Below are positions 44,557 through 53,197 of a stretch of DNA of 64,000 nt, one piece after another. The notes below the pieces were generated by a model. It saw nothing but the letters and a program-made list of their open reading frames with translations. It ran no database searches and had not been told where the DNA came from. Location of the stretch: the NCBI GenBank assembly GCA_905479115.1, contig CAJQLF010000053.1, forward strand, positions 1-64,000, in the 5' to 3' direction. The DNA is from an uncultured Flavobacteriales bacterium. Its GTDB lineage: Bacteria > Bacteroidota > Bacteroidia > Flavobacteriales_D > Sanyastnellaceae. Position 1 is the first letter of the stretch, and each line of letters starts with the position of its first letter. The position numbers were made by a program, and so were the translations under genes.

Positions 44557-45843
44557 TTATTCCATGCGCTCTCCGTGCTGGGAATGATCCAAGCCTCGCT
44601 GCTCCTGGTCGCTTCTAACGCGAAGCGGGATGATGCGATTTACCGCAGCATAGAGCAAATAGCTTACTCCAAAGGTTCCAATTGCTACTCCGACTAGGGT
44701 GACCATGTGACGAATAAAAACCGTCGAATCACCGTGAATTAAGCCAACGTCTTCTGCCAAAACCCCAGTGAGAATCATACCGACCACACCGCCAACACCA
44801 TGGCTAGGAAATACATCCAGTGTGTCATCAATGGCGAATCTTTTTTGAATTTGAATGGCCCAATTGCTCGTCAAAGCGGCGATAAAACCAATGAGGATAC
44901 TATGGCTCAGCGATACAAATCCAGCCGCTGGGGTGATGGCGACTAGACCGACGATGGCCCCGATGCAAGCGCCCAACGCAGACATCTTACGGTTTTGATA
45001 GCGTTCATAGAAAACCCACGTTATCATGGCTGTGGCACTTGCGAGGTTGGTGTTTGCAAAGGCCTTCACAGCAACGCCATTCGCACCCAGCGCAGAACCT
45101 GAATTGAATCCAAACCAACCAAACCACAATAGCCCAGTACCTAAGATGACAAATGGGATGTTAGCCGGTTGATTAACCGAATCTTTTCGTTGACCCAAAA
45201 AAATAGCTCCCGCCAAAGCGGCAAAACCCGCCGACATGTGAACCACCGTTCCGCCTGCAAAGTCAAGAACACCCAAGTTGCGAAGCAACCCATCGGGATG
45301 CCATGTCATATGGGCTAGGGGAGGATAAACGATTAGGCTGAACAGGACGATAAAAAGAATGTATCCACGGAATCGAATACGTCCGGCGAAACTGCCTGTG
45401 ATGAGCGCTGGTGTGATGATGGCAAATTTCAGCTGGAATAAGGCAAAAAGCAGAAAAGGAATGGTCTCAGCAAAAGCGCTGTTGGGCGCGAGCCCGACGC
45501 CATCAAAGACGAAGAATGTACGGGGATCTCCAATGACACCCCCCAAGGATTCTCCAAAGCATAAACTGAAGCCGACCACGACCCACAGCACACTAATGAC
45601 TCCGAGCGCTACAAAGCTTTGCAGCATCGTAGAAATCACGTTCTTTTTATTCACCATCCCGCCATAGAAAAAGGCCAGGCCAGGGGTCATAAGGAGCACG
45701 AATGCGCTGGCAACAATCATCCAAGCGATGTCGCCTGAATCGTATGCCGAAGAATCGACAGAGGAGGTTTCGTAATCAACACCAAATACACAGGCTACCG
45801 TCACTAAGAGTGAGAGCAACAAAAAATTCCATTTCCTATTCAT
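44557..45843 (-). CDS. amt: Ammonium transporter
   Basis: The 428-residue product has an N-terminal cleavable-looking segment and 11 transmembrane helices. Family blocks are TPGLAFFYGGMVNKKNVIST, the first pore His in GGTVVHMSAGFAALAGAIFL, WFGWFGFNSGSALGANGVAV, and the second pore His in DVFPSHGVGGVVGMILTGV. It imports ammonium or ammonia. No glnK/PII gene is adjacent in this window. A promoter-like pair and an intrinsic terminator of an upstream RNA lie between 45888 and 45991, so it probably has its own promoter. Confidence 0.95.
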   Translation of the reverse strand: MNRKWNFLLLSLLVTVACVFGVDYETSSVDSSAYDSGDIAWMIVASAFVLLMTPGLAFFYGGMVNKKNVISTMLQSFVALGVISVLWVVVGFSLCFGESLGGVIGDPRTFFVFDGVGLAPNSAFAETIPFLLFALFQLKFAIITPALITGSFAGRIRFRGYILFIVLFSLIVYPPLAHMTWHPDGLLRNLGVLDFAGGTVVHMSAGFAALAGAIFLGQRKDSVNQPANIPFVILGTGLLWFGWFGFNSGSALGANGVAVKAFANTNLASATAMITWVFYERYQNRKMSALGACIGAIVGLVAITPAAGFVSLSHSILIGFIAALTSNWAIQIQKRFAIDDTLDVFPSHGVGGVVGMILTGVLAEDVGLIHGDSTVFIRHMVTLVGVAIGTFGVSYLLYAAVNRIIPLRVRSDQEQRGLDHSQHGERME

Positions 45844-45887
45844 AATAGAGGGGAAAACCAAGAAAGAGTCGGGTAATTGCCGGAGCC

Positions 45888-45941: not shown

Positions 45942-45991
45942 AAAAAAACAGCATCGAAGTAAACTCTTTCGAATATACTTCCATGCTGTTT
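45942..45991 (-). terminator. Strong intrinsic terminator ending the structured RNA
   Basis: On the minus strand AAACAGCAT (45991-45983) pairs with ATGCTGTTT (45954-45946), and after one G-G mismatch GAAGT (45981-45977) pairs with ACTTC (45960-45956), closing a 16-base loop. The T run continues through TTTTTTT next to the stem. There is no T tract on the other side, so it acts for minus-strand transcripts, 100 bases upstream of amt. Confidence 0.8.
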
Positions 45992-46587
45992 CCTTCGCGA
46001 TCTTCCTCATATTGATTCAGACCATCCGAAACATGCATTTCGAACATGCCATGGGCATACGAACTGCTTGGAATGGCACCTTTCTGTTCACGTCTCCGTG
46101 CTCATTTTTCAATGAAATAACCTCATTTGCATGGGGTCACTACGTCCAGCTTGGTTCCGAACAGGTGCTCCCCGGTTGCCCGGTTCGCTGAAAAGAGCGT
46201 GCTGGCTTTATGGGCCCGCCCAACTTGTCTGTATTTGTGCGTTAACACAGGCTTACACATGTTTCCTCTCGGTTACACAACCGTTCAGCCACTGAACGAT
46301 TCCTTTGCAGGTTTGGGCTTAAATAAATTTGAGCCCAAGACAAGTGAAATTCGGTTCGGTCTTCTTGCATTCTGCTTCTTCGATCTTGCGACCGTCCAAG
46401 TTTCCAGCTCGGGACCTACTTCGCGTCATTCTCAGACGCGTCGTCCTCCTTTCTTCTTTTCATTGCACGGCACCTTTGTGCCCTGCTTGTCCAGCCTAAT
46501 CATGAATCTTGCAATCCGTGACCGTTCGCGAGTAGCTCTTCATTCTCATAAATCGCTTGCTCAAGTGGCCGTGGGTGTTTCCACCCG
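45942..46587 (-). ncRNA. Candidate large structured non-coding RNA, class unknown
   Basis: This fills most of the only long gene-free interval. On the minus strand a series of good hairpins is visible: 46573-46586 (GGGTG-GAAA-CACCC), 46469-46482 (GGCAC/GTGCC), 46422-46440 (CGCGTC/GACGCG), 46381-46394 (GCAA loop), 46313-46338 (TTGGGCT/AGCCCAA), 46282-46298 (CGTTCAG/CTGAACG), 46270-46283 and 46172-46183 (CCGG-GCAA-CCGG). Three loops are GNRA only on the minus strand, which fixes the direction. It ends in a strong terminator with a T tract. A near-consensus TGGCTTTG (46599-46592) could place the start near 46587, giving about 645 nt. tmRNA, RNase P, 6S and group II domain V signatures were looked for and not found. 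A very long amt leader is an alternative. Confidence 0.6.
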
Positions 46588-46657
46588 TTGACAAAGCCAA
46601 GTAACGTCAAAAGTTGAAAGAGGGCAATTATTTAAGTGATTGGAAATCAACACGCTA

Positions 46658-46768: not shown

Positions 46769-49700
46769 ATGCACACATTAGACTTTCAAAAGAATTCATT
46801 GCTGATGCTCAGGCTGACGGCCGTTTTGTGCGCGCTCTTTGGAGTGAATGGCGCGAATGCTCAGACCTGCACATCTCTGTGCGATAGCCTTCCAGCGACC
46901 GTTGAATGGTCCTCGGTAACTGATTGTGCTGTTGAGTTTTCCCTCAGTTTCGTTTCAGATTCTGATGGCGAGGCATTGGATGCCGCGAATGCAATTTGGG
47001 AACTAAACGGAAACGAAGTTGCAACAGGTGCTCAGTGCGCGATTCCTGCAGCGGAAGTTCAGGCAGGGGGAACGTTGGTTGTCACAAGGAGCGGTCTCGA
47101 TGCATTTGCTGATTGTTCGTGCAGCCAAACGATTTCACTCGCTGAAGTTTCAGATGATATGGTGTGGCCTTGCTCATGCCATCCGTTTCAAGGAACACAG
47201 GTTATCGAATACGTCTCGGAAGATGCCTGTATTCCTGTTCATTCTGCTTTATCAGTTTCGACAGAATTGGGTAGTTTGACCCATGTGGCTTTTGACTGGT
47301 CCATTCAAGGTGGGGATTTTGAATTTGACACAGAAACGCATGCGGGCTCGATGGAGCCATCGGTTGTTTTTCTCGAGGCGACGAGTTACCAAGTGGCTGT
47401 TCAGTTGACGGATACGTTGACGGGGTGCACAACGTGGGTCGCGCCGACGAATGTTTCCATGCAAGGAGCGCCGACAGTTTCCATCTTGAATGAATTGGAG
47501 GTGTGTGCTCAGGAGGAGGGAACCCTCGAAGTTTTGGTGAACCCGGGCAATACGGCGTTGACATCATTTGAGTGGATCACCGAGGGTGTTGCAGAATCGC
47601 TTCAATTTCCCGCGCCCTTGACCCAAGGTTATGAAACTTCTGGGCTCACTGAAGTGGTTGCTCTCTCCCAAAATGCATGCGGGATTGGAACAGACACGAC
47701 GTTTGTCTTGGCTCATCCGTCCCCGGTGCTGGAGGTGAGCACTTCGCATAATTGGTATTGCTTGGGATCGTATGTGGACATTGAAGCGACCGGTGAAGGT
47801 GAGTTTTTGTGGAATTCAAGCTCGGAACTCTTAAGTGATGGTCAGCCAGGTGACTCTGTCGCACGCTATGTGGTGGGTTCACAGGTCGTAGGGTCGGTAT
47901 TTACCACGGTGGACCATGGAAACATTCAGTGCTCGACCAGCCAGGGATTTGCGGTGTATGGCTTTTTTGTCCCTTCAATCTCTTTGGAATTAGATGACAC
48001 CTATTGCATCGGAGATACGGTAGCCGCGCAAGCCAATATTGTCAGCTACGGTTGGGATACGGCTGTAGAGTGGATTCTGAATGGTGAACCGGTTGATACC
48101 ACTTTGGCGCCAACCGCTTCTGTGGGTGCCTCCACAGGCATTGCTTTCGCTGCGGATGAACTCGGAATTGGCGCGCAGACCTTGGAGGCTGCCCTCACCT
48201 TCTTTCCCTACCCAACGTGGTTGCCTGATTACGGCTGTGCGAACAACGTATCTCAAGAAATTGAGGTCAAGCCGCTTCCGGTTGTTACGGCACCATCGTC
48301 CTTTGCATTTTGCGATCAGTCCTTTATCGAAACTTTGCCCGATGGCGTTCCATCTGGTGGCACTTGGTCCGGACTATTCCCATTGGAAAACAACGAGGTG
48401 AATCCGGCGAACTTTGGAGTGGGTAATCACGAATTGATTTATACGTATTCAGATGAATTCGGATGCTCGGCATTGGATACCTCATCCATGACCATTTCCC
48501 CTCCGGTCAGCGCTCAGGCTGTAGAAGATACAACGCTTTGTGAAAGCAATGATCTAATTCAGTTGCCTCTGGTCGGCGGTTTTGAGACGGAATATTGGGA
48601 GGGAGTGGGCATCACAGACCCCTCTTCAGGACTTCTCGACTTGGGTGAATTGGTCCCCGGATATTGGAATTTGGTGCATCACCTCGGCTCAGGGTCCTGC
48701 GCGACGAGTGATACGGCCTTGTGGCATATCCTAGAGCAGCCCACAGTATTTCTTTCGACCGAAGGCAGCGTCGCGTGCGACGGTGATACAGTATGGATGA
48801 ACGTGTTTGCTGGAGGTGGGACCTTGGCAGCGGAGGGTGAGTATACCTATGATTGGACGGATGAGGTCACGCTGACTTCTTCGGGCGAGGCTTATTGGAT
48901 TGCTGACCTCAATGAAAACTTCACGATTATAGGATTGACGGTAACAGATGATTTAGGATGCGCTGACGATGCGACGACTTTTATAACCCCAATGGCGTTG
49001 CCTGACATCACGATACCCGAACTGACATCAGAATGCGCCCAAGACATCGAAGTCCCTTTGCCTCTAGTGAGTCCAAATGGGGGATACTGGGAAGGGGAAG
49101 GTATTGTAGATTCATCGGGTGTGTTCAATCCTGGAATTGGTGGTGTAGGTTCCTTTGTGTTGACCTACACCGGTCAAAACTCCCTGGGTTGTACCAATTC
49201 AGATACGGTTGTACTGGAGGTGATTTCGGCACCAGAGATAACCGTGATGGATGACGTGAGCGTCTGTGCAAACGAAGCGACCGTGACCTTGCTCGCGGTG
49301 ACTCCGCTGAACGGAATCTGGAGTGGGCCTGGCATTGCTGGGGTGGATGAATTTAGCCCCACAGCGGCTGGAGTGGGAGAGCACGCCCTGGTCTATCAGG
49401 CTGGAGTTGGTTCGTGTGCTGTATCGGATACTGTCTGGGCTTCTGTCACCGGGCTGCCTGAAATTTCTATTGCTGCTCCTGAATGGGTGTGTGCCGGAGA
49501 TTCTTCAACCGTAACCGCGACTGTGAATGGCGACGTAGCAAATCATCAGTTGATATGGTCAGGAGCATCAAGTAGTTTAGAATCTGAAGGTTGGTTACTT
49601 GTTACGGAAGCATGGGAAGAAGGCGACCAGCCGAATATTTCCTTTTCTGTGGTCAATGAATTTGGTTGCGTAAGTGACTTTCAATCGAGCTGGTCTGTGG

Positions 49701-52700
49701 CGTCGCTTCCGAACGTTGTGGTTCCTCCGATTTGGACCGTCTGCCAATCCGATTCAGCAGCTGCCTTGCCAGATGCGGAGCCAATGGGCGGAACGTGGAC
49801 TGGGCCGGGCATTGCAGACGCAGCTTTCAATGCGACGATGTTGAACTCTGGGGGGTATGCTGCAGTTTATTCTGCCGTGGATGCGAATGGTTGTGTGGGC
49901 CAGGATTCGATGGAAATCATAGTCAGCGCAGTTCCAGAGTTGAATCTCGAGACGACGCTCGCAGTGTGTTTTGGGGATACGACTGTATCGTTGCCCACAC
50001 CTGAAAACTTTGAGGGAGACTGGGAGGGGCCAGCGATTGTTGGTGATACGGCTTCAACAGTGGCCATTGGTTCGTTGACACCGGGTACATACATGTATAC
50101 TTTTAGTCATGCCGGGCCGGTTTGTTCAGTGATGGATTCAGTTGAATTGGTGGTCCATTCGTTGCCTGTTGTTGAGCCGATGTTTGAAGCGCAAGCATGC
50201 CCAGACTCAACCGTTTCATTGGGCGTGAATGTGTCGGGTTCCTCCGCACCTTACCTCGCCACTTGGACGCTCAATGGCCAGCCTCAATCTGGCAATAACC
50301 TCGCAATTGAGGTGGCTTGGTCAACACCCGGAATTCAGGAGGTGATGTGCACGGTGGATGATGAATTGGGATGCTCAGCTGCGGCCGAATGGCTGGTGGA
50401 CATCTTGGAACCGGTGGAAGCTGACATCGACTCCATGATCTCCGTTTGCAACCAAGACATTTCCATCGAACTATCGGATTTCGCAAATTTTGATGCATCC
50501 ACTCAGGTTTGGTATACGGGTGTCGGGACATCGGAAGGCGCTATAGCACCCGATGGGCAGTTGAACCCAGCCTCTCTTGCGGAGGGAGAATATCAAGTCG
50601 AGGTGTTGTTTCAATCTGAAACAGGTTGTAATGCACTTGATACGGCCGTGATTGTAGTTTCCATTCCTGAGTTTGTTGAAACAGCTTTGGACACCAGCGT
50701 ATGCGCGTTGACGGGATTGCATGTCTTCAATGCGCTCCCTGAGGAAGGCGCATTCACCTGGTCTGGCACCGACGAGTTTAGTGAAGCGGCAATTGCAGAT
50801 TCAGAAGCGGGTTTGATCAATGTGAATGCATTGCCCTCGGGCGCTCATTCCTTTGCGGTTTCCATGGGGCACGCTACGTGCTTGACGACGGATACATTGA
50901 CCGTTCATGTAACGGCGTTGCCTGAAATTCAGTGGCCGGCGTTGGATGTCCTTTGCGTTGATGCGGGAACGGTCGATTTCGATGGAGTCCAGCCTGCAGG
51001 CGGTCTATGGACAGGTGACGGAATTATCGATGCCGAGTTGGGCACGTTTGATCCGGTCGCGGCAGGAATTGGAATCCATGCGGTGGAATACGCGGTTACA
51101 GATTTATTGACCCAATGCTCGGCCTCTGATTCAATGGAATTGCAAGTTGTAGCTCCTGTTCAAGCTGAATTCAGTGCGCCCTTAAATTCATGTGCTGGAA
51201 TTCCGGTTGTTTTGAATGCCTTGAGTGCAGATCAAATGGTTGCTGCATCCTGGTGGCAAGCGGATACCCTCATAGGACAGGGGGTGTCGATTGAATGGCT
51301 TTCAGAAGACGATGCCAACATCGTTTTGATGACGACCGACATGAATGGTTGTCAGGATTCGACGATGCAGTTCTTGGCTTGGGAGCATGTGCCTGAGGCC
51401 CAAGTTGAAATGTCGGCTGCCACGGGTTGCGCTCCTTTGGATGTTTCTTTCCAGCCTTCAACGGATTGGGATGATGTTAGTTGGTCGTGGTACATCGACG
51501 GGGACTTGGTATCTGAAGAAGCTGCTTTTGATGGGGTGTTGGATGCGGAGAGCGATTCCGTGGTCTATGCGATATCCCTTGAATTGAACCATGCGTGCGG
51601 TGTATATCAATCCATGGATTCAATCGTTGTTATACCAAGACCCGTTTTAGATTTCTCGAATACCGTGGCCGATGGATGCGTTGAGGAAGAGATGGTACTT
51701 GCTGTAGAATCTGAGTTTTCGGACCAGCTGACCTGGGTCTTGGGTGGACAACCCGAGGTGACGGCCGATTCGTTGGATGTGGAATGGACCAATGCAGGAC
51801 TGTATGAGGTTCAGGTGACGGCGACCCACTTGATCAATGGATGCAGCACTGAGGCGGAGTGGATCATTGAAGTGCACGCAGCTCCTGATTTCACGCTGTC
51901 TGTCGATGCTACCGAAGGATGTTCTCCGCTGCTAGTTCAGTTTTCTTCTGAAGGAAGCGAAGCGGGTTGGGACTGGAGCTGGGACTTTGGTGACGGTTCC
52001 ACAGGAACTGGAGAAGCCAACGAGACTCATTCCTATTCGAACGACGGAGTGAGCGAGGAGTGGGTGGCCGTAGCAACTGTGACGGATGTTTGGGGCTGCA
52101 CGGGTGATGCGTCGGTTTCGATGGAAGTATATCCTCAGCCTGAGACAGATTGGGGTTTGATTCCTGAGGAAATTTGCGGTGTGCCTTCAACCTTGATATT
52201 GGAAAGGGGAGGAGAAGAGGTCGAGGAGGTGTACTGGAATGTGAATGGTGAGTTGTCCGCGCTTGGAGATACCGTTCAGTTGCTGCTGAATCAGCTTGGT
52301 TGGAATCAAATTGAACAGGTTGTAACCAATGAATTTGGTTGCAGCGCCAGCGCTTTGGATTCCATCGAAGTCTTGGCTTTGCCAAGCGTCTCTTTGTCGG
52401 TTCAGCCGATGATGGGCTGTGGTCCGCTTGAAGTCGATGTTGAAGCGAATTCCAATGGGGTGATGACCATGTTGGAGATTACGCAATCGGGCAACGAAAT
52501 TTATGCGGGCCAGGCGGATTCGATCATCGCATTGCACGGTGATGGAAGCTATCACTTTGAATTGGTTAGTACGTCAGATCGGGGGTGCGTCAATGCAGTC
52601 GAACTCGCGGATAGTGTCATCGTTTTCCCGAGTCCAGCGGTTTATTTTGAAGCCCAGCCGTACTCCGGCACATTCGAAGATCCTCATCCGCTGAATAGCA

Positions 52701-53197
52701 CGTGGACTTTTGAGAATGGATCAGATGCGGGCCAATCCATCTGGGATTTTGGCGATGGTGCGATGTCTTCCGAATGGAATGGTACGCACACGTATACTGC
52801 CCCTGGCACGTATGAGGTGGTATTGCTGGTGGTGAATGAAATGGGATGTTCGAATGAATGGTCCAGAACCATTGCGGTTGAGGAAAATTTACAGGTGTTT
52901 GTTCCCAACGCATTTACACCGCCAAACGCAGGCTATTCAGACGGAGTGAACGATGGGTGGAGACCGGAAGTTTCTGCACCAGACTTGGTGGACCGCTACT
53001 TGTTGCGCATTTTCAATCGGTCCGGTCGGCTCATTTGGGAAACGCAGGACCCCGAGGCGTATTGGATTGGGGAGGCCCAAGTGGACGGTGAATTCTTTGG
53101 AATGAACGACGTCTACACGTGGGTACTGCGCATTGACTCGCGTGCTCAATTGCCGGCCACGCAGGAGTGGCGTGGCCATGTCACCCTTATTCGGTGA
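46769..53197 (+). CDS. Giant T9SS type B adhesin-like protein with Ig-like and PKD repeats
   Basis: The 2142-residue product has a signal peptide (MLRLTAVLCALFGVNGANAQ, beginning at Met 13; the start could be 46805). The middle (about residues 480-1450) contains nine recognisable repeats with the pattern LP-x-GGTWSGPGI-x-GVGEHALVY-x-GC-x-SD. Two or more PKD domains follow (WDWSWDFGDGSTGTG and SIWDFGDGAMSSEW with THTYTAPGTYEV). The end is the gliding-motility-associated type B sorting domain (LQVFVPNAFTPPNAGYSDGV, LLRIFNRSGRLIWE). It is exported by T9SS, probably acting as a cell-surface adhesin or matrix protein. Its 3' end overlaps the convergent multicopper oxidase gene by 11 bases. Confidence 0.92.
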   Translation: MHTLDFQKNSLLMLRLTAVLCALFGVNGANAQTCTSLCDSLPATVEWSSVTDCAVEFSLSFVSDSDGEALDAANAIWELNGNEVATGAQCAIPAAEVQAGGTLVVTRSGLDAFADCSCSQTISLAEVSDDMVWPCSCHPFQGTQVIEYVSEDACIPVHSALSVSTELGSLTHVAFDWSIQGGDFEFDTETHAGSMEPSVVFLEATSYQVAVQLTDTLTGCTTWVAPTNVSMQGAPTVSILNELEVCAQEEGTLEVLVNPGNTALTSFEWITEGVAESLQFPAPLTQGYETSGLTEVVALSQNACGIGTDTTFVLAHPSPVLEVSTSHNWYCLGSYVDIEATGEGEFLWNSSSELLSDGQPGDSVARYVVGSQVVGSVFTTVDHGNIQCSTSQGFAVYGFFVPSISLELDDTYCIGDTVAAQANIVSYGWDTAVEWILNGEPVDTTLAPTASVGASTGIAFAADELGIGAQTLEAALTFFPYPTWLPDYGCANNVSQEIEVKPLPVVTAPSSFAFCDQSFIETLPDGVPSGGTWSGLFPLENNEVNPANFGVGNHELIYTYSDEFGCSALDTSSMTISPPVSAQAVEDTTLCESNDLIQLPLVGGFETEYWEGVGITDPSSGLLDLGELVPGYWNLVHHLGSGSCATSDTALWHILEQPTVFLSTEGSVACDGDTVWMNVFAGGGTLAAEGEYTYDWTDEVTLTSSGEAYWIADLNENFTIIGLTVTDDLGCADDATTFITPMALPDITIPELTSECAQDIEVPLPLVSPNGGYWEGEGIVDSSGVFNPGIGGVGSFVLTYTGQNSLGCTNSDTVVLEVISAPEITVMDDVSVCANEATVTLLAVTPLNGIWSGPGIAGVDEFSPTAAGVGEHALVYQAGVGSCAVSDTVWASVTGLPEISIAAPEWVCAGDSSTVTATVNGDVANHQLIWSGASSSLESEGWLLVTEAWEEGDQPNISFSVVNEFGCVSDFQSSWSVASLPNVVVPPIWTVCQSDSAAALPDAEPMGGTWTGPGIADAAFNATMLNSGGYAAVYSAVDANGCVGQDSMEIIVSAVPELNLETTLAVCFGDTTVSLPTPENFEGDWEGPAIVGDTASTVAIGSLTPGTYMYTFSHAGPVCSVMDSVELVVHSLPVVEPMFEAQACPDSTVSLGVNVSGSSAPYLATWTLNGQPQSGNNLAIEVAWSTPGIQEVMCTVDDELGCSAAAEWLVDILEPVEADIDSMISVCNQDISIELSDFANFDASTQVWYTGVGTSEGAIAPDGQLNPASLAEGEYQVEVLFQSETGCNALDTAVIVVSIPEFVETALDTSVCALTGLHVFNALPEEGAFTWSGTDEFSEAAIADSEAGLINVNALPSGAHSFAVSMGHATCLTTDTLTVHVTALPEIQWPALDVLCVDAGTVDFDGVQPAGGLWTGDGIIDAELGTFDPVAAGIGIHAVEYAVTDLLTQCSASDSMELQVVAPVQAEFSAPLNSCAGIPVVLNALSADQMVAASWWQADTLIGQGVSIEWLSEDDANIVLMTTDMNGCQDSTMQFLAWEHVPEAQVEMSAATGCAPLDVSFQPSTDWDDVSWSWYIDGDLVSEEAAFDGVLDAESDSVVYAISLELNHACGVYQSMDSIVVIPRPVLDFSNTVADGCVEEEMVLAVESEFSDQLTWVLGGQPEVTADSLDVEWTNAGLYEVQVTATHLINGCSTEAEWIIEVHAAPDFTLSVDATEGCSPLLVQFSSEGSEAGWDWSWDFGDGSTGTGEANETHSYSNDGVSEEWVAVATVTDVWGCTGDASVSMEVYPQPETDWGLIPEEICGVPSTLILERGGEEVEEVYWNVNGELSALGDTVQLLLNQLGWNQIEQVVTNEFGCSASALDSIEVLALPSVSLSVQPMMGCGPLEVDVEANSNGVMTMLEITQSGNEIYAGQADSIIALHGDGSYHFELVSTSDRGCVNAVELADSVIVFPSPAVYFEAQPYSGTFEDPHPLNSTWTFENGSDAGQSIWDFGDGAMSSEWNGTHTYTAPGTYEVVLLVVNEMGCSNEWSRTIAVEENLQVFVPNAFTPPNAGYSDGVNDGWRPEVSAPDLVDRYLLRIFNRSGRLIWETQDPEAYWIGEAQVDGEFFGMNDVYTWVLRIDSRAQLPATQEWRGHVTLIR

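Follow-up and report, generated by a model that had tools for sequence, protein, structure and literature searches.

The window, that is the whole stretch of 64,000 nt that was analysed, holds on its minus strand a region of about 650 nt lying between amt, which is the next gene downstream, and a divergently oriented gene for a giant secreted protein (Table 1). The initial annotation had proposed for this region a possible new class of large structured RNA that starts at 46587 and ends in a terminator with a T tract. The terminator was borne out, whereas the start had to be moved: we place the 5' end near 46593, since the conserved helix P1 starts there, just downstream of promoter-like boxes. 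In the aligned copies of the window and of the seven full relatives described below, an upstream TTG box and a TTnnTTTG-like (TTTG-like) box abutting the conserved 5' end are seen at similar spacing. The boxes resemble the -33/-7 pattern of Bacteroidota (consensus TAnnTTTG), to which the -7 box of the window is a weak match. A terminator closes every full homologue, and its sequence differs in the divergent copies. Judged by these signals, the region is a predicted transcription unit of its own with promoter-like boxes and with ends fixed within a few bases, and we infer that the minus-strand RNA is transcribed.

Table 1 Features of the RNA locus and its surroundings. Positions refer to the window unless another locus is given. 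Column Strand gives the strand of each feature.
Feature	Position	Strand	Remarks
Structured RNA (type A)	45942..46593	-	About 650 nt, helix P1 to terminator end; based on fold, homologues, covariation and no Rfam match
Promoter-like boxes of RNA gene	46598..46627	-	TTG (46627-46625), 19 bases, GTTACTTG (46605-46598)
Rho-independent terminator	45942..45990	-	Long hairpin then T7; based on sequence and fold
5' domain	46421..46593	-	Recovered blind by covariance model R1
P1, 5' strand UGUC	46590..46593	-	Pairs with downstream GACA; invariant in 8/8 copies holding it
P2 hairpin GGGUG-GAAA-CACCC	46573..46586	-	GNRA loop; 3/5 pairs changed on both sides, 100% paired
P5 hairpin GGCAC-AAAG-GUGCC	46469..46482	-	Loop invariant; CGCAC/GUGCG stem in G015
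P6 hairpin	46422..46440	-	7-nt T-loop-like loop UGAGAAU (46434-46428); 6/7 pairs changed on both sides across family
3'-domain hairpin CCGG-GCAA-CCGG	46172..46183	-	Relatives: GCGG/CCGC, UCGG/CCGA
amt, ammonium transporter	44557..45861	-	Next gene downstream, context, outside RNA; Pfam PF00909, E 5e-112
Giant secreted-protein (adhesin-like) gene	46769..53197	+	Divergent neighbour, context; ORF of 2142 aa
Type-B RNA, G020	L223:1600-2442	+
Type-B RNA, G014	L224:1795-2641	-
Type-B RNA, G008	L225:1794-2639	-
Type-B RNA, G011	L226		Partial
Type-B RNA, G010	L216:469-1315	-

The minus strand of 45942-46605 folded with -235.1 kcal/mol and a z-score of -6.63 against dinucleotide-preserving shuffles, and the plus strand scored -3.93 in the same test. 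A second fold run on 655 nt gave -6.72 for the minus strand vs -3.38 for the plus strand. Of the 15 four-base hairpin loops in the most stable minus-strand fold, 10 are GNRA, and the plus-strand fold has 0; the energy model rewards GNRA loops, a bias that is equal for both strands. The same one-sided pattern (5-13 vs 0 by strand) was also seen in seven homologues and in three RNAs of a second type, type B. The initial annotation is thus in agreement with the fold as regards the many hairpins on the minus strand (z about -6.7) and the restriction of GNRA loops to this orientation, and the three GNRA loops that it had named are all present in the minus-strand minimum-energy fold, namely GAAA at 46578-46581 and GCAA at 46386-46389 and at 46176-46179.

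We then collected homologues, as the initial annotation had suggested. The RNA has a single copy in the window's genome, and with the window as blastn query against 200 relatives the only credible match was in G019, over 32 bases with 91% identity. The locus in G019 is a stretch of the same length with a terminator at its end, and used as query it led to G001, G004, G012, G013 and G016, as well as to G007, where the copy is cut by the contig end; all of these belong to the same genus. The pattern GCACAAAGGTGC-(20-50)-TGAGAATG was also searched in GTDB contigs, where the real matches were these relatives only, in metagenome-assembled genomes labelled Flavobacteriales or Crocinitomicaceae, the titles of which suggest that the genus is probably marine. 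Pattern matches in other phyla and in viral contigs were rejected, being without the remainder of the structure.

In order to have a test that is blind to the window, a covariance model (R1) was made with the sequences of six relatives and a hand-drawn structure; the helix list behind it was derived with the window in view, but no window sequence entered the model. R1 recovered 46593-46421 on the minus strand with 52.5 bits (E 3.5e-14) as its sole match in the 64 kb on both strands, and additionally recovered a divergent copy in G015. Since R1 was built without the window, this match places the window RNA in the type-A family, which has nine copies (window included), one per genome, among 22 genomes of one Flavobacteriales genus. 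No type-A copy was detectable in the other 13, where the core pattern had scattered matches only. Neither R1, run on 114 genomes of the family, nor R3, a model with the window and G015 among its sequences that was run on 399 genomes of the order, had a credible match beyond the genus. Weak model matches in G089, G091, G018, G006, G002, G017 and G112 lie mostly inside protein-coding genes, one being an ordinary terminator, and a match in G037 was too weak to count. A model of the 3' domain (R2) recovered close relatives only and missed the window and G015, so that the 3' half is either far less well conserved than the 5' half or constructed in another way.

The relatives keep the shape of the RNA while its sequence changes. 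The stem of P2 reads GGAUG/CAUCC in relatives, and in G015 both P2 and P5 have altered stems and unaltered loops (GAACG-GAAA-CGUUC and CGCAC-AAAG-GUGCG). The P6 loop resembles a T-loop by sequence. In the 3' domain, several relatives (L033, L035, L036, L038, and L204 near 5000) have a second UGAGAAU/UGAGAA loop, in the form UUGC-UGAGAAU-GCAA or, in G015, CAC-UGAGAA-GUG; the window counterpart is CACG-GAGA-CGUG (46093-46096), so that at this site one loop type seems to be replaced by the other.

With eight sequences aligned to R1 over the 5' domain, 97.3% of the cells pair and 13 of the 36 pairs are changed on both sides, a value reached by 0 of 500 shuffles; slid controls drop to 33-48% paired. 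The R1-based alignment leans toward structure. In a MAFFT alignment not fitted to structure, helices P2, P5 and P6 were 99.2% paired, and in 6/17 pairs both partners were changed (0/500 shuffles). For the 3' domain the corresponding values were 93.3% and 14/45 (0/500 shuffles), with a structure derived from the same alignment that was used to score it. MAFFT placed the window poorly mid-way in both domains, and helix counts there were not used as structure evidence. Since kinship among the sequences inflates the shuffle tests, we put the main weight on the blind recovery, on helices P2 and P6 with their double changes, and on the slid controls. Most of the sequences come from near relatives, so that many of the covariation events are supplied by the divergent copies of the window, G015 and G016. 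Compensatory changes are seen in several helices, and the covariation of the 5' domain is strong.

Once the filters of R3 were relaxed, its search of the 22 genus genomes yielded further matches with 20-23 bits in G008, G011, G014 and G020 and with 14 bits in G010. These lie in a second RNA, type B, which is likewise structured and conserved, is about 830 nt long and has a terminator at its end, and which is found in these five genomes and is undescribed as far as can be told. In four type-B sequences, 44 pairs are changed on both sides. Type B has three hairpins in common with type A, namely one with the C-AAAG-G loop, one with UGAGAAU/UGAAAAU and the GNRA hairpin that follows; their order is unchanged and their spacing nearly so, but type B is longer and has little sequence similarity to type A beyond this three-hairpin core. 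The two types never occur in one genome, and 8 of the 22 genomes have neither; the chance of zero overlap is about 0.05 by a hypergeometric count that ignores kinship, and mutual exclusivity is only suggestive. The type-B pattern had no matches in viral contigs, and no RNA was found in G018 at the site of the gene that lies downstream of type B.

Several other explanations of the locus were considered. A protein-coding gene or a pseudogene at this place would seem to gain support from antisense frames of 120-219 codons, which are open opposite the RNA in several copies (window 46127-46591, plus strand) and broken in others. However, 112 variable sites in five close copies are spread evenly over the codon phases (40/39/33), the long frame is interrupted in G013, and the compensatory changes preserve helices instead. 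The ORFs at the locus are all short and have no family match on either strand, the lone Pfam line being an antisense ORF with E 0.032, below its cut-off. The antisense frames look like chance, the probability of a coding origin is close to nil, and the earlier statement that the stretch has no believable protein stands. A highly diverged RNase P RNA, tmRNA, 6S RNA or group I/II intron would be comparable in size and would likewise have GNRA loops and a T-loop-like loop, and the initial annotation had found no signature of these. The Rfam 15 search is in line with this, having no match in the window at gathering thresholds and, once E-values were relaxed, nothing in the region beyond chance hits to lncRNA families (E 0.28-3.2); the type-A and type-B homologue loci matched no family, with one chance match outside the RNA. 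Moreover, the RNase P RNA of this genome (RF00010) is at a separate locus (G000:C43, 214.5 bits), tmRNA (RF00023) is elsewhere in five of the type-A carriers (G001, G007, G013, G016, G019), and the RNA ends in its own terminator. We therefore regard a diverged copy of a known RNA as extremely improbable. As a side observation, tmRNA was found at separate loci in 11 of the 22 genomes of the genus and not above the cut-off in the other 11, the window's included. Several of the tmRNA matches (G007, G013, G014, G019) start no more than about 50 bases from where the contig ends, and the missing ones are probably due to assembly breaks at the tmRNA gene.

The RNA closely precedes amt, shares its strand and has a terminator at its end, which could suggest a cis-acting, riboswitch-like leader controlling ammonium uptake. 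This arrangement is seen in the window and in G015, which are two of the nine copies; the remaining seven adjoin a photolyase gene (G001, G004, G007, G013), a gene for an EF-hand-like secreted protein (G012, G019) or a PhoH gene (G016). Together with the length of the RNA, which is much greater than that of known riboswitches, the differing neighbours and its own promoter-like boxes and terminator make such a leader very unlikely, and genomic context has largely refuted it. The change of neighbours between subgroups of one genus and the patchy presence in 9/22 genomes would also be expected from a mobile or selfish element or its remnant (HEARO-like or intron-like) in place of a cellular gene. 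Against this, there is one copy per genome among the matches found, the site upstream of amt is shared by the window and G015, and no reverse transcriptase or nuclease gene was seen adjoining the RNA. Phages, plasmids and viral contigs had no credible type-A match, and the Rfam searches had no HEARO match. A mobile origin is accordingly judged to be unlikely.

We conclude with a probability of roughly 0.8 that the locus is a gene in its own right, with its own promoter-like boxes and intrinsic terminator, and that its product is a large, structured, non-coding RNA that represents a new class. It is regarded as new since it has no counterpart among the catalogued RNA families, and the open-access papers searched do not describe one like it from Flavobacteriales. 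What the initial annotation had proposed as a possibility is thus supported by homologues with compensatory changes, for a class confined so far to one genus. Type A folds as a string of hairpins together with multi-branched domains; GNRA loops cap many of these, and the T-loop-like UGAGAAU loop caps one. GNRA and T-loop-like loops are standard elements of tertiary contacts, so that a compact fold is likely, and we infer that these loops dock into helices and junctions to form one compact tertiary structure. We tentatively suggest, as something possible that falls short of being probable, that this structure may serve as a trans-acting RNA scaffold, through self-assembly with its own copies or through binding of a dedicated protein, as for OLE, ROOL and GOLLD. 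Rather unlikely, in our estimate, is the broader idea that A and B are two rapidly diverging forms of a single chromosomal large RNA with a shared P5-P6-P7 core, the compact fold of which would assemble into a homo-oligomer or a ribonucleoprotein, that is, an ornate RNA particle not borne by phages.

Bacterial RNAs so large and structured are rare, and the best-studied ones are ribozymes, machine parts or RNA-only cages. Type A adds a class with compensatory-change support and defined ends, and the longer type-B RNA with a common core in sister genomes provides a natural series for studying covariation and core function. The 32-base match, all that blastn with the window detected in its relatives, also illustrates how RNAs of this kind can escape notice in genera that have received little study, their evolution being too rapid for searches by sequence.

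OLE is a large ornate RNA of comparable size from a different bacterial group than the type-A carriers, and no OLE-type neighbour genes were seen at the present loci. ROOL and GOLLD are found in phages or prophages, often beside tRNA arrays, whereas the neighbours of type A are chromosomal genes, the window has no tRNA, and type A was not seen in phage collections. There was no match to the Rfam models of ROOL, GOLLD or OLE in the window or its homologues; type A is not a member of these three families by Rfam score, nor of ROOL or GOLLD by genomic setting. With GOLLD, the layout of which is not comparable, it shares large size, ornateness and many tertiary-contact motifs, and a conserved GAAA loop has been reported for GOLLD (PMC12286853). 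With ROOL (Rumen-Originating, Ornate, Large) it shares many hairpins, a nearly equal length and having no protein partner or function known. The copy of ROOL solved by cryo-EM has 659 nt (PMC12286853). The likeness to OLE, ROOL and GOLLD, the size range of which the initial annotation had cited, is one of size and style only. "Large ornate bacterial RNAs", the group that holds type A, is a loose descriptive one and not a family; OLE, ROOL and GOLLD, large ornate RNAs with tertiary contacts of the above kind, form homo-oligomers (PMC12286853).
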